Assembly (NCBI GenBank): GCA_025934895.1 | Contig: JAICWH010000030.1 | Span: 1 to 33,145 of the forward strand | Reading direction: 5' to 3' | DNA length: 33,145 nt | From: Nocardioidaceae bacterium | GTDB taxonomy: Bacteria > Actinomycetota > Actinomycetes > Propionibacteriales > Nocardioidaceae | Part shown: positions 24,739 through 33,145 of the stretch, piece by piece | How positions within the stretch are numbered: position 1 is the stretch's first letter | Layout of the letters: each line of letters opens with the position of its first letter | The notes under the pieces: generated by a model | The model's database searches: none | What the model saw: only the letters and a program-made list of their open reading frames with translations | Told to the model about the DNA's origin: nothing | Translations under genes and position numbers: made by a program

Positions 24739-25962
24739 ATGGACGCGATGGAGGAGCCCCCGAAGACCCTGTTGATCACCCTCACCGGCACGGACCGCCC
24801 GGGGGTGACGTCGACGGTGTTCGCCACGCTCGCGGCGTTCGGCGTCGCGGTGCTGGACATCGAGCAGATTGTGCTGCGTCGCCGCCTGGTGCTCGGCGTC
24901 CTGGTGACCGTGCCCCGGGACTGGAAGGCGCTGCGGGACGCCGTGCAACGCGTCGGGTCCGAGCTCGAGATGCAGGTCGAGGTGGACCGAGGCACCGGTG
25001 ACAACCGACCCCGGCCGGAGGGACGCAGCCACGTCACCGTGCTGGGGACGCCGCTGCGGCCGGCTGCGGTCGCCGCCATCGCCGGCCGGATCGCCGACAC
25101 CGGCGCCAACATCGACCGGATCGAGCGGATGGCGCGCTACCCGGTGACGGCGATCGAGCTGCACGTCTCGGGGGCCGACCCGGACCGGCTGCGCGCGACC
25201 CTGGCGGCGGAGGCGGCGGTGCAGGCGGTCGACGTCGCCGTACAGCCGGCGAACCTGCTGCGGCACGGCATGCGGCTGGTCGTGATGGACGTCGACTCGA
25301 CGCTGGTCCAGGGTGAGGTGATCGAGATGCTCGCCGCCGAGGCCGGCTGCCTCGAGGAGGTGGCGGCCGTGACCGGGGCCGCGATGCGCGGCGAGGTCGA
25401 CTTCGAGACGTCGCTGCGCCGCCGGGTGGCGCTGCTCGCGGGCCTGGAGGTCACCGCGCTGGACCGGGTGTACGACGCCCTCCAGCTCGCCCCGGGCGCG
25501 CGCACCCTGGTGCGGACGCTCAAGCGGCTCGGCTACCGGTTCGCGATCGTCTCCGGAGGCTTCACCGCCGTCACCGAGCGGATCGCCGCCGACCTCGGCA
25601 TCGACTTCGCAGCGGCGAACGAGCTCGAGGTGGCCGATGGCAGGCTGACCGGCCGGCTGGTCGGCCCGGTGCTCGACCGCGCCGGCAAGGCGGACGCGCT
25701 GCGCCGGTTCGCCGCCGCGTCGGGGGTGTCGATCGGCGCCACGGTGGCGGTCGGCGACGGGGCCAACGACCTCGACATGCTCGCGGCCGCGGGGCTGGGC
25801 ATCGCGTTCAACGCCAAGCCCCTGGTGCAGCAGGCCGCGGACACGGCGGTGAACGTGCCCTACCTGGACGCCATCGTCTACCTGCTGGGGATCAGCCGGG
25901 AGGAGGTCGAGGCCGCCGACGCCCTGGAGGGCCTGACCACGCCTGCTCCCCCGCTGCCCTGA
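24739..25962 (+). CDS. serB: Phosphoserine phosphatase with N-terminal ACT domains
   Basis: SerB hydrolyses O-phosphoserine to serine, the last step of serine synthesis. The 407-aa protein has two N-terminal ACT-like modules (about residues 8-85, starting LLITLTGTDRPGVTSTVF, and about 95-165), as in mycobacterial SerB2, where they mediate allosteric control by amino acids. The HAD phosphatase domain has motif I DVDSTLV (nucleophile Asp184, acid Asp186), motif II VSGGFT, a motif III Lys in RAGKADALRR, and motif IV GDGANDLDM. The family length and domain order are normal. ATG 24748 is a slightly later alternative start. The gene is convergent with sixA across a repeat array. Confidence 0.94.
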   Translation: MDAMEEPPKTLLITLTGTDRPGVTSTVFATLAAFGVAVLDIEQIVLRRRLVLGVLVTVPRDWKALRDAVQRVGSELEMQVEVDRGTGDNRPRPEGRSHVTVLGTPLRPAAVAAIAGRIADTGANIDRIERMARYPVTAIELHVSGADPDRLRATLAAEAAVQAVDVAVQPANLLRHGMRLVVMDVDSTLVQGEVIEMLAAEAGCLEEVAAVTGAAMRGEVDFETSLRRRVALLAGLEVTALDRVYDALQLAPGARTLVRTLKRLGYRFAIVSGGFTAVTERIAADLGIDFAAANELEVADGRLTGRLVGPVLDRAGKADALRRFAAASGVSIGATVAVGDGANDLDMLAAAGLGIAFNAKPLVQQAADTAVNVPYLDAIVYLLGISREEVEAADALEGLTTPAPPLP

Positions 25963-26126: not shown

Positions 26127-26634
26127 GGCCGACGTAGTAGCCGACCACCCGGCCGCTCTCCGCCGCGAGCTCCGACCACGGCAGCTCGAACTGCAGCACC
26201 GCCAGCGCGGCCGGCGGGAACCCGTGCAACAGGTCGGACACAGCGGCCGGATCACCCTCGCCGTCGTCGAGGAAGTGGCAGATGTACTCCGCGATCGGGT
26301 TGTGGCCCACGAACAGCACCGTCGTCGCGTCCGGTGGAGCGCCGCGGAGCGCATCCAGCACGACGTCGGCGCTGCCGGAGAACAGGGCGTCGTCGAAGGC
26401 CGCCCGGGCCGGGTCGACTCCCGACGCGTCGGCGACCTCGGCCCAGGTCTCCCGAGTGCGGGTCGCGGTGGAGACCAGTGCGAAGTCGGGGAGCAGCCCG
26501 GCCTCGCGCAGATGCCGGCCCACGTCCCTGGCGCTCTCCCGCCCACGAGCGGTCAGCGCGCGGGCGTGGTCGCTGTCCCCGAACGGCTCTGCCTTGGCAT
26601 GGCGCAGCACAAGCAGGCGCCGACCGCGGGTCAC
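26119..26634 (-). CDS. SixA-type histidine phosphatase
   Basis: The 171-aa protein belongs to the histidine phosphatase (phosphoglycerate mutase-like) superfamily, SixA branch. LLVLRHAKAEPFGD at the N-terminus holds the catalytic His of the RHG-like motif (here RHAK). TRTRETWAE and FVGHNPIAEYI (second catalytic His) follow in the usual order. SixA enzymes remove phosphate from phosphohistidine or other small substrates. I chose GTG 26634 because GAGG lies 6 nt upstream. ATG 26670 is possible but would overlap the divergent cyanophycinase start and its -10. The last codons lie in the 32-bp repeat array. Confidence 0.85.
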   Translation of the reverse strand: MTRGRRLLVLRHAKAEPFGDSDHARALTARGRESARDVGRHLREAGLLPDFALVSTATRTRETWAEVADASGVDPARAAFDDALFSGSADVVLDALRGAPPDATTVLFVGHNPIAEYICHFLDDGEGDPAAVSDLLHGFPPAALAVLQFELPWSELAAESGRVVGYYVGRS

Positions 26635-26655
26635 GGGACCCTCGTCGGCACCCCG

Positions 26656-26661
26656 TAGGCT
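26656..26661 (+). promoter_or_regulatory. Putative -10 (TAGGCT) for leaderless cphB-cphA
   Basis: TAGGCT is followed by GCCGTGC and then ATG 26669, a 7-nt spacing, in the short divergent gap with sixA. It would drive the cyanophycinase-cyanophycin synthetase pair. Confidence 0.45.
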
Positions 26662-26668
26662 GCCGTGC

Positions 26669-27703
26669 ATGCCGAACGGTTCATCGGACACCGGATCAAC
26701 TATATCCCCCCAAAGTGGACCGGGAGCCCTGATCGCCATCGGTGGTGCCGAGGACAAGCTCGGACTCCGCTCGGTGCTCGGCGAGTTCGTGTCGCTTGCG
26801 GGTGGCACGGACGCCAGGATCGCCGTCGTGCCCACCGCATCCTCGCTCGGACCCGAGATCGTCGAGGTGTACGACGCCCTCTTCCGCCGGCTCGGCGCCG
26901 GCCAGGTGGTCGGTGTGCGACCGCAGACCCGCGAGGAGGCCGAGCACCCGGCGATGGTCGGCCTGCTCGGGGACGCGACCGGCATCTTCATGACCGGCGG
27001 CAACCAGCTCAAGCTGTCCTCGATCGTGAACGGTACGGCGTTCGGCGACGCGATCGTGGCGGCCCACCGACGCGGCGTGGTGGTCGCCGGCACCAGTGCA
27101 GGTGCCAGCATCCAGTCCAGCCACATGGTGGCGTTCGGCCCCGGCGGCTCCACCCCCAAGCAGCGGATGACCCAGCTCGCCGGCGGTCTGGGCCTGGTCC
27201 GCGACGTGGTCATCGACCAGCACTTCGCCCAACGCAACCGCTACGGCCGGCTGCTGATGCTCGTCGCGCAGAGCCCCGGCCTGCTGGGCATCGGCATCGA
27301 CGAGGACACCGCGGCGGTGGTCACCAGCGAGCCCAGCCCCGACCTGGCGAGCACCGACCGGGTGGAGATGCTCCGTGTGGTCGGGCGAGGTGCGGTCACC
27401 CTCTTCGACGCCCGCTCGGTGGTGTCGAACGCGGACACCGCCCGCCGTACGGCGCCACTGCTCGCGTCCGGCGTGGTGCTGCACGTGCTGCCGGCGGGCT
27501 CGGTGTTCAACCTCTCGGACCGCACCCTGGTGCGCCCGACGGCGACGGTGGACCCGGCCGAGGCCGAGGAGCTGGCGGTTGCAGGACGTGACCTGAAGCG
27601 GTTGGCTCGAGACATCGCCGCCGGCGACGTGTCCCCGACCGTGCTGCGGCGGCGCAGAGCCCGACAAGCCCCTGACCCGGTCATCGAAGGAGATCCTGCA
27701 TGA
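26669..27703 (+). CDS. cphB: Cyanophycinase
   Basis: Cyanophycinase is a serine exopeptidase that cuts cyanophycin (poly-Asp with Arg side chains) into beta-Asp-Arg dipeptides. The 344-aa protein has the S51-family catalytic Ser143 in GTSAGAS, FMTGGNQLKL (the Gly-Gly-Asn-Gln element), VVPTASSLGPE and VIDQHFAQRNRYGR, all typical of the family. It is longer than the roughly 270-300 residues common in the family because of a C-terminal basic extension (last 50 residues). Its stop overlaps the cphA start (ATGA), so degradation and synthesis genes are co-translated. Export is unlikely, as there is no signal peptide. Confidence 0.92.
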   Translation: MPNGSSDTGSTISPQSGPGALIAIGGAEDKLGLRSVLGEFVSLAGGTDARIAVVPTASSLGPEIVEVYDALFRRLGAGQVVGVRPQTREEAEHPAMVGLLGDATGIFMTGGNQLKLSSIVNGTAFGDAIVAAHRRGVVVAGTSAGASIQSSHMVAFGPGGSTPKQRMTQLAGGLGLVRDVVIDQHFAQRNRYGRLLMLVAQSPGLLGIGIDEDTAAVVTSEPSPDLASTDRVEMLRVVGRGAVTLFDARSVVSNADTARRTAPLLASGVVLHVLPAGSVFNLSDRTLVRPTATVDPAEAEELAVAGRDLKRLARDIAAGDVSPTVLRRRRARQAPDPVIEGDPA

Positions 27704-30480
27704 GCGTCCCCTCGCCCGACCTGTCGATCCTCGAGACCCGCGTCTACCGCGGGGCCAACGTCTGGTCGTACGAGAAGGCGATCCATCTCGTCGTCGATCT
27801 GGGTTCACTGGAGGACCACCCCTCGAACACCCTCCCCGGCTTCAACGAGGACTTGGTGCAGATGCTGCCCGGCCTGCGCGAGCATTCGTGCTCGCGTGGG
27901 CGTCGCGGAGGCTTCCTCGAGCGGCTCAACGAGGGCACCTGGCTCGGGCACGTCGCCGAGCACACCGCGCTCGCACTGCAGCAGGCCGTCGGCCACGACG
28001 TACGCCGCGGCAAGACCCGGCAGGTCAAGGGTGAGAGGGGCCGCTACAACGTGATCTACGGCTACGTGGACGAGACCGTCGGACTGGCCGCGTCCCGGCT
28101 CGCCGTACGCCTGGTCAACCACCTGGTCCGGGCCGACCCCGGCTTCGACTGGGACGCGGAGCTCGAGGACTTCATCCTGCGGGCCGAACGGGCTGCGTTC
28201 GGGCCGTCCACCCAGGCGATCATCGACGAGGCGGTCTCCCGTGACATCCCCTGGATCCGGCTGAACAAGCACTCCCTCGTGCAGCTCGGGCAGGGCGTGC
28301 ACCAGAAGCGCATCCGCGCCACCATGACCTCGGCCACCAGCGCGATCGCGGTCGACGTCGCCTCCGACAAGGACCTCACCACCCGGCTGCTCGGCGCGGC
28401 GGGACTGCCGGTGCCCAAGCAGGAGTCGGTGCGTACGGCGGAGCAGGCGGTCGCCGTCGCGGAGCGGATCGGCTACCCCGTCGTGGTCAAGCCACTGGAC
28501 GGCAACCATGGCCGAGGGGTGTGCCTGGGGCTGGAGAACGCGGACGACGTGCGCGCGGCGTTCCCGGTGGCCGAGGAGCAGGCCCGCGGCCCGTGGGTGA
28601 TCGTGGAGTCGCAGATCACCGGACGCGACTACCGGTGCCTGATCGTCGACGGCCGGCTGGCCGCCGTGGCCGAGCGGGTGCCCGCACACGTCGTAGGGGA
28701 CGGGCGGAGCACCATCGAGGACCTCGTGGACCTCACCAATGCCGACCCGCGTCGCGGCGTCGGGCACGAGAAGGTGCTCACCCGGATCAAGGTGGACGAC
28801 GCGGCGCTGGCCCTGCTGGCTGACCAGGGCTACAAGCTCGGTGACGTCCCGGCCGCCGGCGAGCTGGTGAAGCTGACCCTCACCGGCAACATGTCCACCG
28901 GTGGCATCTCCATCGACCGCACCTTCGAGGCGCACCCGGAGAACGTCGAGATCGCCGAGGAGGCAGCCCGGATGGTGGGGCTGGACATCGCCGGCATCGA
29001 CTTCATCTGTCCCGACATCACCGAGCCGGTGCGGGAGACCGGTGGGGCGATCTGCGAGGTGAACGCGGCGCCCGGGTTCCGGATGCACACCCATCCGACC
29101 ATCGGCGACCCGCAGTTCATCTCCAAGCCCGTGGTCGACATGCTGTTCCCGCCGGGTGCGGCGAGCCGGATCCCGATCGTGGCGGTCACCGGCACGAACG
29201 GCAAGACGACCACGGCCCGGATGATCTCGCACATCTTCAAGGGTATGGGCCGCAAGGTCGGCATGACCTCGACGGACGGGGTCGTGATCGACGAGCGGCT
29301 GGTGATCCGCTCCGACGCGTCGGGTCCGAAGTCCGCGCGGATGGTCCTGCAGAATCCCCGCGTCGACTTCGCCGTGTTCGAGGTGGCGCGCGGGGGGATC
29401 CTCCGGGAGGGGCTCGGCTACGAGCGCAACGACGTGGCCGTGGTGCTCAACGTGCAGCCGGACCACCTCGGGCTGCGCGGCATCGACACCGTCGAGCAGC
29501 TCGCGGACGTGAAGGCGGTCCTGGTCGAGGCGGTCCCGCGGGACGGGCACGCCGTGCTGAACGCGGACGACCCACTGGTGCGCGAGATGCGACGTCGCTG
29601 CTCCGGCGAGGTCGTCTGGTTCTCGATGGCCGAGCCGGACTCCGACGAACGTGACCTGATCGACCAGCACTGCCGCCGCGGCGGCAAGGCACTCGTCCTG
29701 GAGCCCAGTGAGCGCGGCGAGATGATCGTCGTACGCCATGGGCGACGGGAGATGCAGCTCGCCTGGACCCACCTGCTGCCCTCGACGTTCAGTGGCCGGG
29801 CCCGGATGAACGTGCAGAACGCCCTCGCGGCGGCGGCCGCCGCCTTCGCCGCCGGGGCGCCGTTGCACGACATCCGCCAGGGCCTACGGACCTTCACCAC
29901 CAGCTACTACCTCTCGCCGGGGCGGCTCAACGAGCTCGAGGTCAACGGCGTGCAGGTGATCGTGGACTACTGCCACAACGCGCCCGGGATGAAGATGCTC
30001 GGCGACTTCGTGGACCGGGTCGGGGACAGCCTGGCGACGACGAGCGAGCTTGGCCGTCCCTCGCGGATCGGCGTCGTGGCCACCGCGGGCGACCGGCGCG
30101 ACGACGACATGCGTGAGCTGGGCGCGATCGCCGCTCAGCACTTCGACGTGGTGGTGGTCCGGGAGGACCAGTCGTTGCGGCACCGGGAGCGGGGGGCGAC
30201 CGCTGCCCTGGTGGCCGAGGGGGTGCGCGCAACGATGGCCGACGGGGGGCGGTGCAAGCAACTCGAGGTGGTCCTGGACGAGATCGCCGCCGTGCGGCAC
30301 GCCATGTCCCGCGCCAACGCCGGCGACCTGGTGGTGGTGTGCGTGGACCAGCACCCGGCCGTGATGGCCGAGCTGGAGAACTGGTCCAACCAGGCCCAGG
30401 CCGGCTCCGGGTCGACGGACGGCCCGGTCGGAGACCCGGACTACGCGCGTGCGGCTGCGGCCGTCGTACCCGACGCCTAG
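27700..30480 (+). CDS. cphA: Cyanophycin synthetase (CphA1-type)
   Basis: CphA1 builds cyanophycin, a nitrogen and carbon store: its ATP-grasp domain adds Asp to the backbone and its Mur-ligase domain attaches Arg to the Asp side chain. All three modules are present in this 926-aa protein: an N-domain (about residues 1-165, LETRVYRGANVWSYEKA), an ATP-grasp domain (about 215-475, with Lys264 in VVKPLDGNHGRG and Glu453/Asn455 in CEVNAAPGFRMH) and a Mur ligase (about 485-900, P-loop GTNGKTTT from 498, then ARGGIL and DHLGLRGI). The enzyme looks complete and active. A 4-nt overlap couples it to cphB; a paralogue lies convergently downstream. Confidence 0.94.
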   Translation: MSVPSPDLSILETRVYRGANVWSYEKAIHLVVDLGSLEDHPSNTLPGFNEDLVQMLPGLREHSCSRGRRGGFLERLNEGTWLGHVAEHTALALQQAVGHDVRRGKTRQVKGERGRYNVIYGYVDETVGLAASRLAVRLVNHLVRADPGFDWDAELEDFILRAERAAFGPSTQAIIDEAVSRDIPWIRLNKHSLVQLGQGVHQKRIRATMTSATSAIAVDVASDKDLTTRLLGAAGLPVPKQESVRTAEQAVAVAERIGYPVVVKPLDGNHGRGVCLGLENADDVRAAFPVAEEQARGPWVIVESQITGRDYRCLIVDGRLAAVAERVPAHVVGDGRSTIEDLVDLTNADPRRGVGHEKVLTRIKVDDAALALLADQGYKLGDVPAAGELVKLTLTGNMSTGGISIDRTFEAHPENVEIAEEAARMVGLDIAGIDFICPDITEPVRETGGAICEVNAAPGFRMHTHPTIGDPQFISKPVVDMLFPPGAASRIPIVAVTGTNGKTTTARMISHIFKGMGRKVGMTSTDGVVIDERLVIRSDASGPKSARMVLQNPRVDFAVFEVARGGILREGLGYERNDVAVVLNVQPDHLGLRGIDTVEQLADVKAVLVEAVPRDGHAVLNADDPLVREMRRRCSGEVVWFSMAEPDSDERDLIDQHCRRGGKALVLEPSERGEMIVVRHGRREMQLAWTHLLPSTFSGRARMNVQNALAAAAAAFAAGAPLHDIRQGLRTFTTSYYLSPGRLNELEVNGVQVIVDYCHNAPGMKMLGDFVDRVGDSLATTSELGRPSRIGVVATAGDRRDDDMRELGAIAAQHFDVVVVREDQSLRHRERGATAALVAEGVRATMADGGRCKQLEVVLDEIAAVRHAMSRANAGDLVVVCVDQHPAVMAELENWSNQAQAGSGSTDGPVGDPDYARAAAAVVPDA

Positions 30481-30610
30481 CCTGGCGTCGCGTGCGGAGC
30501 ACGACCCCCGGCCGAGGCGTGCGATCCCTGGCTCCTCTCACGACACGATCCCGACGGCGGTCCCCGTCGACCGATGAGGCGCCCGGGCGCTTGTGGACCG
30601 TCCTCAGTAC

Positions 30611-30735
30611 GCCGAGTCGGCGCATCCGCAGGGCCAGGACTGTCGTACTCCTGCGGACGCGCCGGGTCGGCACGGTTTCGGCCTGCGGACGCGCCGACTC
30701 GGCACGGTTTCGGCCTGCGGACGGGCCGGGTCGGC
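30611..30735. repeat. 32-bp-period repeat array D, one forward and three inverted copies
   Basis: The forward unit is 30611-30642 (GCCGAGTCGGC then GCATCCGCAGG). Three inverted units follow at 30640-30671, 30672-30703 and 30704-30735, each with CCTGCGGACG before a GCCG(A/G)(C/G)TCGGC-type core. The first two units face each other and can fold into a 22-bp stem with about three mismatches and a 17-nt loop. The array ends 9 nt before the stop of the leftward Mur ligase gene and lies 130 nt after cphA, in the 263-bp convergent gap. Confidence 0.9.
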
Positions 30736-30743
30736 ACCGGGGC

Positions 30744-32432
30744 TCAGCCGCGAGCGGCGCGGACCTTACGGCCCAGGGTGTCGGGGCTGTCCGCGGTGAA
30801 CCCCTGGGCGGCCAGCCAGTCGTAGACGCCCTGGCGGTCCTCGTGGGTCATCACCGCGACCACGTCACCGGGCTCGGCCCTGCTGACCAGCGTCTCGAGC
30901 GCCTCGACCTCGGTAGGGTACGACGGCACGTCGACCACCCCCACCCGGGCTGCGGCGGCGCGGAACAGCTCGTCGAGCTCCCCGACGGTCCGGCCGCGGA
31001 GGTACGCCGCCTTGTGCGCGATGACCAGCACGTCGGCGTCCCGGGCGCCGGTCTCCGCCAGGCTCGCGAGCACCTCGTCCTGCCGGTCCCCGACAGCTCC
31101 GAGGGCCAGCAGAAGCCGAGCCCCCGGCCGGCGTACGCCGTTCATGATCTCGAGCAGGGCCTCCAGCCCGGCCTCGTTGTGCGCGAGGTCCACCACCACG
31201 CTGAGCTCGCCGCGGCTGAAGAAGTTCATCCGGCCGGGATTGTGCTCGGCGTCCGGCCGGAAGGACCGCAGACCCTCGACGACGGCGTTCCTGGGCAGTC
31301 CGACGCCGAGCGCTGCCGAGGCGGCGGCCAGCGCGTTCTCCACATTGAACCGCGACAGACCCGCGAGGGTCATCGGGATGTCGGCGACCTCCAGGAGCGG
31401 GTCGGGGTCGCTGCCGGCGGTCAGGACGCACAGCCAGCCGTCGATGACGGTCGTCGCGCGGCCACCTGCGGACAGCGTCTCCCGGACAGCCGGGGAGTCC
31501 GGGTCGCGGGAGAACACCCACGGCCTGGCCTGGAGCGAGCCGCGGACGGCGTACACCCGGGGGTCGTCGCCGTTGAGCACCGCCCAGCCGCCGGGCCGGG
31601 TGATCCGCGACACCACCGCCTTCACCTCCGCGAGCTGGTCGACGGTCTCGATGCCCTGCAGGCCCAGGTGGTCAGCGGACACGTTGGTGAAGACGGAGAC
31701 GTCGTTGTAGGCGACCCCGATCCCCTTCAGCAGGATCCCGCCGCGGGCCGTCTCGGTCACCGCGAGCTGCACCCCGGGACGCTCGAGCACCCGACCGGCG
31801 CCCGAGGGCCCCGAGTAGTCGCCCGACTCCACCAGCTCGCCGTCGACGTAGATCCCGTCCGTGCTGGACCACCCGACGTGCATGCCGTGCCCCAGGGCGA
31901 TGTGCGCGATCATCCGCGACGTGGTGGTCTTCCCGTTCGTGCCGGTGACCGCGACCACCGGGACGCGCGGCCGTAGGGTCGCCGGTGGCGGCCCGGGCTC
32001 GGCGTCCCGGACGGCCGCCGCGGCCCGGCCGACCAGCTCGTCCAGGTCCGGGCTCGGCAACGCGTCGAGCACGTCGGCGACCGCGCGGGCCAGGGCCTCG
32101 GCCCGACCGCGATGCCGCCAGGGGTAGGCGACCACGAGCTGACGGACGTCACCCGAGGGCCTGGTCCGCACGCCCAGCCGTGTGGTGCCGGCCTCGCGGG
32201 CCACCTGGCGGACCAGCCGGGCGACGGCGCGGGCCGCGAACCGCTGCCGCAGCCCACCGCCGGGCTCGCCGGGACGCACCTGGCGCAGCCCGACGCGCGC
32301 GGCGAACCGCCGGGCGACGTCGTCGGGTGCGTCCACCAGCCGGGTGAGGTCCAAGGTGAGCTTCACCGCGGCCCGCGGGAAGTAGAGGTTGGGCCCTTCG
32401 AGGACGCGGAGCTCGACGAGTGCGGAGGTCAT
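30744..32432 (-). CDS. CphA-related Mur ligase lacking the ATP-grasp domain
   Basis: The 562-aa protein aligns with the neighbouring CphA at both ends but not the middle. Its N-terminal 125 residues (VELRVLEGPNLYFPRAAVKL) match the CphA N-domain, although the EH pair of CphA HVAEHTALALQ is lost (RFAARAVARLV). Residues 155-562 are a Mur ligase with P-loop GTNGKTTTSRM (164-174), ETARGGILLKGIG, ADHLGLQGIETVDQL, DLAHN and YLRGRTVGELD, all corresponding to CphA. The roughly 260-residue ATP-grasp is absent. Such a protein could ligate to a side-chain carboxylate but not extend a backbone. The substrate is unknown. An in-frame GTG at 32441 is an alternative start. Confidence 0.88.
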   Translation of the reverse strand: MTSALVELRVLEGPNLYFPRAAVKLTLDLTRLVDAPDDVARRFAARVGLRQVRPGEPGGGLRQRFAARAVARLVRQVAREAGTTRLGVRTRPSGDVRQLVVAYPWRHRGRAEALARAVADVLDALPSPDLDELVGRAAAAVRDAEPGPPPATLRPRVPVVAVTGTNGKTTTSRMIAHIALGHGMHVGWSSTDGIYVDGELVESGDYSGPSGAGRVLERPGVQLAVTETARGGILLKGIGVAYNDVSVFTNVSADHLGLQGIETVDQLAEVKAVVSRITRPGGWAVLNGDDPRVYAVRGSLQARPWVFSRDPDSPAVRETLSAGGRATTVIDGWLCVLTAGSDPDPLLEVADIPMTLAGLSRFNVENALAAASAALGVGLPRNAVVEGLRSFRPDAEHNPGRMNFFSRGELSVVVDLAHNEAGLEALLEIMNGVRRPGARLLLALGAVGDRQDEVLASLAETGARDADVLVIAHKAAYLRGRTVGELDELFRAAAARVGVVDVPSYPTEVEALETLVSRAEPGDVVAVMTHEDRQGVYDWLAAQGFTADSPDTLGRKVRAARG

Positions 32433-32476
32433 GGCGGCCACACGGTACCCCGGTCCGGGACAGCCGGGGACGGGCG

Positions 32477-33145
32477 TCAGGCGCCCATGGCGTGGTAGCC
32501 GCCGTCCACGTGCACGATCTCACCCGTGGTGGCCGGGAAGAAGTCGCTGAGCAGCGCCACCACCGCCTTCGCGGTCGGCACGGTGTCCTTCTCGTCCCAG
32601 CCCAGCGGGGAGCGGTCGCTCCACATCGACTCGAGGTCCTCGAAGCCCGGGATCGCCTTCGCCGCGAGGGTCTTGAGAGGGCCGGCGGAGACCAGATTGA
32701 CCCGCACGCCGTGGGGTCCGAGATCGCGGGCCAGATAGCGGGCCGTCGACTCCAGCCCCGCCTTGGCCACACCCATCCAGTCGTACGCCGGCCACGCGAC
32801 CGTCGCGTCGAAGGTCAGCCCCACCACCGACCCGCCGTCGCCCATCAGCGGCAGGCACGCGTTGGACAGGGAGACCAGGGAGTAGGCGGACACCTGCACG
32901 GCCTGGGCGACGTCCGGCCAGGGACCGGTGAGGAACTTGCCGCCGAGCAGCGTCTCGGGGTTGCCGAAGGCGATCGAGTGCACCACCCCGTCGAGCCCGT
33001 CCACGTGCTCGCGCAGCAGGTCCGGGAGCCGCTCGAGGTGCTCGGGGTCGGTGACGTCGAGCTCGACGACCGGCGTCGGCTGCGGGAGCCGCCCGACGAT
33101 GCGCCTGGTGATGCCCAGGGCGCGCCCGAAGTTGGACACCACGAC
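32477..33145 (-). CDS. fabI: Enoyl-ACP reductase, InhA/FabI type (N-terminus beyond window)
   Basis: The visible 222 residues are the C-terminal part of an NADH-dependent enoyl-ACP reductase, the last step of each fatty acid elongation cycle. GLDGVVHSIAFGNPE matches the InhA nucleotide-site strand, YDWMGVAKAGLES holds the catalytic Tyr-x6-Lys of enoyl reductases, and GEIVHVDGGYHAMGA is the family C-terminus. The N-terminal Rossmann glycine motif (about 30-45 residues) lies past the right edge, so the gene is partial here. It is 44 nt upstream of the CphA-like Mur ligase start in the same direction. In related genomes fabG usually precedes it. Confidence 0.93.
   Translation of the reverse strand, partial: VVVSNFGRALGITRRIVGRLPQPTPVVELDVTDPEHLERLPDLLREHVDGLDGVVHSIAFGNPETLLGGKFLTGPWPDVAQAVQVSAYSLVSLSNACLPLMGDGGSVVGLTFDATVAWPAYDWMGVAKAGLESTARYLARDLGPHGVRVNLVSAGPLKTLAAKAIPGFEDLESMWSDRSPLGWDEKDTVPTAKAVVALLSDFFPATTGEIVHVDGGYHAMGA

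Follow-up and report, generated by a model that had tools for sequence, protein, structure and literature searches.

The window, meaning the whole 33,145-nt stretch of DNA analysed here (contig JAICWH010000030.1 of a Nocardioidaceae bacterium), carries near its right end a group of genes related to cyanophycin. On the forward strand, serB (24739..25962), encoding phosphoserine phosphatase and considered only as a conserved flank, is followed by the cyanophycinase gene cphB (26282..27703; 231 bits against TIGR02069, cut-off 126.6) and by cphA (27700..30480). The latter encodes a three-domain CphA1 (N, ATP-grasp, Mur) of 926 amino acids, which scores 1167 bits against TIGR02068, where the cut-off is 850, and in which the C-x19-HxxEH motif and the Mur residues are intact. 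Most relatives have no match to the initial 115-147 residues of the cyanophycinase ORF, whose true start probably lies downstream of 26282. Converging on cphA from the minus strand is a gene (30744..32432, with ATG at 32432 and stop at 30744-30746) that encodes a CphA-type Mur ligase of 562 amino acids, which I will call the short protein. Directly upstream of it and reaching the window's edge is fabI (32477..33142, minus strand), encoding enoyl-ACP reductase.

The order serB - cphB - cphA > < short < fabI < fabG is conserved across families. The short gene and cphA are convergent in all 72 loci where both are close by. In each of 85 loci the short gene shares its strand with fabI, from which it is separated by a median of 40 bp. 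This arrangement suggests a fabG-fabI-short transcription unit, in which the short gene and fabI may be co-transcribed; with fabI so close upstream on its own strand, the actinobacterial short gene may be regulated apart from cphBA. A scan of 30400-33145 for promoters and terminators, of a kind that does not cover actinobacterial promoters, found none, and the RNA fold of the intergenic region is no more stable than those of shuffled sequences (z = -1.17). A GC-rich unit of 32 bp, present in 2.8 copies with 91% matches (30650-30737), occupies the space between the ends of the convergent genes.

The short protein consists of a CphA1-type N domain fused straight onto a complete Mur ligase, the P-loop of such proteins falling about 163 residues from their start. 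Pfam models find only Mur_ligase_M and Mur_ligase_C in it, whereas in the same type of scan several ATP-grasp models match the adjacent CphA, with which it shares 40% identity. TIGR02068 gives 382 bits, below the cut-off of 850, and covers only profile positions 476-850, the Mur part. The preliminary description of the gene, made from the sequence alone, had read it as a CphA-like N domain joined to Mur with no ATP-grasp module between them, and that architecture stands: when 38 orthologues were scanned singly, none showed an ATP-grasp domain even at E<=1, which rules out an overlooked one. The minus strand and the convergence with cphA had gone unmentioned in that description. The comparison of a predicted structure with CphA1 that had been proposed at the same time gives the same picture. 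An AlphaFold2 model (mean pLDDT 88.6, pTM 0.79) superposes on chain A of TeCphA1 over 519 residues (4.1 A, Z 50.9), pairing residues 3-544 of the model with residues 1-877 of the chain and skipping the ATP-grasp domain, and the next structural matches are MurC and MurE structures (Z about 32). In the predicted structure, then, the N and Mur domains sit in the geometry of CphA1.

The N domain (residues 1-148; 31989..32432) falls below detection by Pfam, but profile-profile alignment with hhalign matches it along its length to the N domain of CphA1 (probability 93%, E 3.5e-7, 127 columns). In CphA1 a zinc site with the motif CxnHxxEH generates primers for synthesis (PMC9262961). That motif, typical of most but not all CphA1 proteins, is present in none of 111 short proteins, and its HxxEH portion, found in every one of the 74 partner CphA proteins, is likewise missing from 111 of 111, so the lost EH pair of the preliminary description extends through the whole set. 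The metal ligands of CphA1 align instead onto arginines: an arginine-rich stretch (R53, R62, R64, R68, R72 and R75; 32208..32276) corresponds to the C-H-H zinc site. The net charge of the N domain averages +5.8 in the 111 short proteins (range +2 to +10), as compared to -3 in the partner CphA1.

No such loss is seen in the Mur ligase. Its core (residues 155-393; 31254..31970), with ATP site and catalytic residues intact, is followed by a C-terminal lid (residues 394-562; 30747..31253) that matches PF02875 and its structural counterpart. The preliminary description had judged the active site intact from GTNGKTTT, ARGGIL, DHLGL and DLAHN, all of which are present in the short protein, and the relatives bear this out. 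GTNGK within the P-loop GTNGKTTT (residues 164-171; 31920..31943) is invariant in 111 of 111. Numbered according to SuCphA1, the positions that are invariant or nearly so in the same set comprise the P-loop GTNGKT, T522, E558, R561, N581, D585, H586, K602, N696, R731, D745, H748, N749, G775-D776-R777, R805 and R807. The features by which an intact Mur site is recognized in CphA1 (the P-loop, E558, D585, H586 and the Mg ligands) are accordingly all found in the 111 short proteins. These residues matter to the known enzymes: K499A, in the lysine of the P-loop, impairs TeCphA1 (PMC9427784), and D585A H586A is the published mutant in which the M domain of SuCphA1 is inactivated (PMC9262961).

At a second set of Mur positions the short proteins differ from CphA1. 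R778, which does not vary among the 74 partner CphA1 or four solved CphA1 structures, is replaced by T, Q, S or A, and D781 by L, I, M or V. G stands in place of S542 and an aromatic residue at position 537, while E800 is K and position 803 is Y in 111 of 111. The acidic loop of the lid in CphA1, of the type KEDDDKRGR, is replaced by HKAAYLRGR (residues 473-481; 30990..31016), which by analogy with MurE is the probable pocket for the incoming amino acid. The changes would cluster at the expected binding sites of the acceptor and of the amino acid to be added, taking pocket positions, as I presume one may, from alignment to the DNPR region of MurE rather than from measured coordinates. They make the addition of arginine less likely. 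Y537, G542, Y803 and the absence of R778 recur in alphaproteobacterial relatives (considered below); K at position 800 is missing from deep-branching ones. Variation at some of the same positions occurs in CphA proteins as well. Two divergent actinobacterial CphA (loci L150 and L151; about 40% identity), from loci with no short gene, both have L in place of D781, and one of them has A in place of R778. In one family (f14; genomes G067, G090 and G107) there are two copies of CphA and the short gene is missing; of the two copies in G067 (L147 and L148), that at L147 has changed residues in the lid loop.

The relationship between the two kinds of protein was considered through a tree of 62 Mur domains. 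One side holds 29 actinobacterial short proteins and three relatives of alphaproteobacterial type; the other holds CphA1 from cyanobacteria, proteobacteria, Bacteroidota, Deinococcus and actinobacteria, including the solved cyanobacterial and proteobacterial proteins. The branch separating short proteins from all CphA1 has support of 100/99, from which it follows that the divergence is old and that the short protein is not the product of a recent deletion. When MurC, MurE and MurF are added, by branches so long that the root is tentative, CphA1 remains one clade (90/99) with the short proteins outside it. With the same very long outgroup branches, short proteins and CphA1 group together against MurC, MurE and MurF (88/97), and the two alphaproteobacterial sequences no longer group with the actinobacterial short proteins but branch immediately outside them (88/71), the exact root being unsure. 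The alternative raised at the outset, that the protein belongs with ordinary MurE or FolC ligases, is ruled out by the tree and by family scores: TIGR01085 (MurE) gives 94.9 bits, far from its cut-off of 257.3, and the organism's own genome has a separate MurE that scores 302 bits.

Judging from these sequences, the short protein is best explained as an ancient sister of the CphA1 Mur domain, and I propose that the short Mur ligases associated with cphA be regarded as a subfamily. Its putative members combine N and Mur domains without ATP-grasp, an aromatic residue at 537, G542, a residue other than R at 778, Y803 and a partner cphA in the genome, all of which are found here. The two-domain layout may itself descend from an ancestor of that form, into which ATP-grasp was later inserted to give CphA1.

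Relatives of the short protein are encoded outside the actinobacteria, where the alphaproteobacterial form has been sampled through plasmids only. Plasmids of Shinella, Ruegeria and 'Roseateles' carry in one run of genes cyanophycinase, cphA and a protein of 578-601 amino acids labelled in RefSeq only as 'Mur ligase family protein'. These proteins have the signature residues of the short proteins and lie on the same branch of the 62-domain tree. Those of Shinella and Ruegeria resemble the short protein in having no ATP-grasp and in adjoining cphA and cyanophycinase, but their genes run in the direction of cphA and their N-terminal parts are more divergent, although the Shinella protein shares the motif GPNLY with the short protein in that region. 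The name of the third organism is doubtful: its plasmid (NZ_CP084754.1, locus L181; Roseateles sp. XES5, UNVERIFIED_ORG) encodes a Mur ligase with 94% protein identity to that of Shinella.

Other candidates were set aside. A 622-aa 'Mur ligase family protein' on a plasmid of Legionella adelaidensis (L172:4326-6191) also has N and Mur domains with no ATP-grasp, and its gene adjoins those for cyanophycinase and isoaspartyl peptidase, with no cphA nearby. It differs from the short protein in keeping HxxEH and the pocket residues of CphA1, and it groups with CphA1; its sequence thus apparently represents a separate, independent loss of ATP-grasp. Mur-ligase-family proteins of about 690-840 amino acids on Deinococcus plasmids (L168, L171 and L182) are also of the CphA1 type. 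Those of L168 and L171 give weak ATP-grasp matches where scanned, and L168 has in addition a full cphA, its second protein appearing split in two. The Legionella and Deinococcus proteins were rejected as orthologues, since their pocket residues are of the CphA1 type and the tree places them within CphA1. Convergent short and cphA genes are also found in MT838013.1 (L173), which is entitled 'Bacteriophage sp.' and comes from human faeces but looks like a fragment of an actinobacterial chromosome.

The preliminary description had called for a survey of how often the gene accompanies cphA. The association proves near-strict, and the inheritance of the short gene tracks that of cphA. The organism's own genome has CphA and a single copy of the short gene, and each of the 23 positive genomes among 58 relatives has both. 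Across the class (395 genomes), 31 have both, 7 have CphA only and none has the short gene only, so that all 31 carriers of the short gene have CphA (Fisher p about 1e-39, a value that treats genomes as independent of shared ancestry). Counts of this kind do not represent independent events, since adjacent genes can vanish in one deletion. Within the order, 126 of 392 genomes of at least 95% completeness are positive; in 125 of these the best match is of the short type and is joined by a second match (the second matches being listed in part), and in one there is only a match of CphA strength. The phylum survey found 24 carriers, 22 of them with CphA; the two exceptions are assemblies 87% and 67% complete. 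Where cphA is not near the short gene, in some cases at contig ends, it is found elsewhere in 7 of 8 genomes, several times on another contig. The short gene spans several actinobacterial classes, and many related genomes without cphA are also without it. In a collection of named genomes, the best 80 of 200 relatives come from Nocardioidaceae/Propionibacteriales, except for one record named only Actinomycetota.

How does the short protein compare with enzymes already described? It is closest to CphA1 (TIGR02068; 7LG5, 7LGQ and 7WAE), with which it has in common homologous N and Mur domains, their geometry and the catalytic Mur residues, and from which it is set apart by the absence of ATP-grasp and CxnHxxEH, by the changes at R778, D781 and the lid loop, and by its separate clade. 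Cyanobacterial CphA2 is likewise a relative of CphA that lacks one of two ligase activities. In CphA2, however, ATP-grasp is kept while the P-loop and lid of Mur are absent (PMC9427784), and in the short protein it is ATP-grasp that is absent and the P-loop and lid that are present, the reverse arrangement, just as had been surmised. MurE and ligases of the MurT/FolC type share with it the Mur fold, P-loop and catalytic machinery, but where MurE has its UDP-MurNAc-binding domain the short protein has an N domain of the CphA1 type, and it scores far below family cut-offs. I found no description of the short gene in the open literature; among the papers searched, none mentions 'Mur ligase family protein' together with cyanophycin, or Nocardioides together with cyanophycin synthetase, though subscription papers may contain an earlier mention.

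From its preserved catalytic site and its constant company, the short protein is probably an active ligase of cyanophycin metabolism. What it ligates is a finer question. The preliminary description had offered three candidate roles: decorating poly-Asp or other acidic side chains, altering cyanophycin, or helping CphA. My leading reading, held with middling confidence, is of a Mur-type ligase that uses ATP, is devoted to cyanophycin metabolism and links to an aspartate-type carboxylate a substrate that I infer is not arginine. The arginine-rich N domain would bind cyanophycin or a poly-aspartyl chain, whole or as a fragment; the Mur domain would phosphorylate an aspartate-type carboxylate with ATP; and the activated carboxylate would be coupled to the amine of the substrate. 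The outcome would be a second kind of side chain on the polymer, or on its starter or end, while assembly of the backbone would remain the task of ATP-grasp in the CphA1 next door.

A simpler possibility is that the short protein performs the reaction of the CphA1 Mur domain as a stand-alone enzyme, adding arginine to unmodified aspartate as a booster or gap-filler. Its nearest family is that very domain, it has all the catalytic Mur residues of CphA1, and it nearly always accompanies CphA1. I consider this unlikely, because the Mur domain of the partner is already intact and because R778 and D781, constant in CphA1 except for one divergent group, are uniformly replaced, the acidic lid loop giving way to HKxxY. 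Complementation of a broken partner is ruled out by the intact N motif, ATP-grasp matches and Mur residues of the window's CphA. The two-domain layout without chain-elongating ATP-grasp and the kinship of its N domain with the primer-making part of CphA1 would also suit a priming or capping factor, one that makes a short starter (e.g., aspartate plus another amino acid) or caps ends and so sets the number or length of chains. This too seems rather doubtful, and so does help to CphA in the form of primers: the short proteins lack the peptidase motif in 111 of 111 cases, and CxnHxxEH is complete in every partner CphA1 examined (74 of 74, and all paired ones in a wider set), so that an extra source of primers is unneeded.

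The strand shared with fabI in every locus, at so short a distance, might instead place the gene functionally in a fabG-fabI unit, acting outside cyanophycin metabolism on a molecule of the cell envelope or a cofactor. Such a role is improbable, given that presence and absence follow cphA phylum-wide, that related genomes without cphA often lack the gene, and that the alphaproteobacterial relatives adjoin cphA in a quite different setting. One could also imagine a partner of CphA1 without catalytic function, an N-Mur scaffold for attachment to the polymer or to tetrameric CphA1, as the CphA1 geometry retained in the predicted structure would allow; a scaffold would have no need of catalytic Mur residues that do not vary among 111 relatives spread over many genera, and I regard this as very improbable. 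Finally, a protein with two of the three CphA1 domains, encoded beside cphA, brings to mind a decaying, recently truncated copy of its neighbour, an explanation that is hardly credible and can be discarded in view of the 40% identity, the 100/99 split in the tree and conservation across classes.

In existing descriptions cyanophycin, a polymer for nitrogen storage, is made by a single enzyme and has side chains of arginine. Given a second ligase that is conserved, apparently active and co-inherited with cphA, the actinobacterial polymer, or its metabolism, is probably not that of the textbook, and the presence of this ligase beside CphA in many soil actinobacteria suggests that they modify cyanophycin in a way not yet described. 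More tentatively, the short protein may be the founding example of another class of cyanophycin ligases, one that attaches an amino acid that is not arginine. Many actinobacteria and some alphaproteobacteria would then make an undescribed polymer of mixed side chains, with an N-Mur ancestor of CphA1 a possibility. The short protein might serve as a tool for adding other amino acids to poly-aspartate, and it provides a view of how the three-domain synthetase was assembled.
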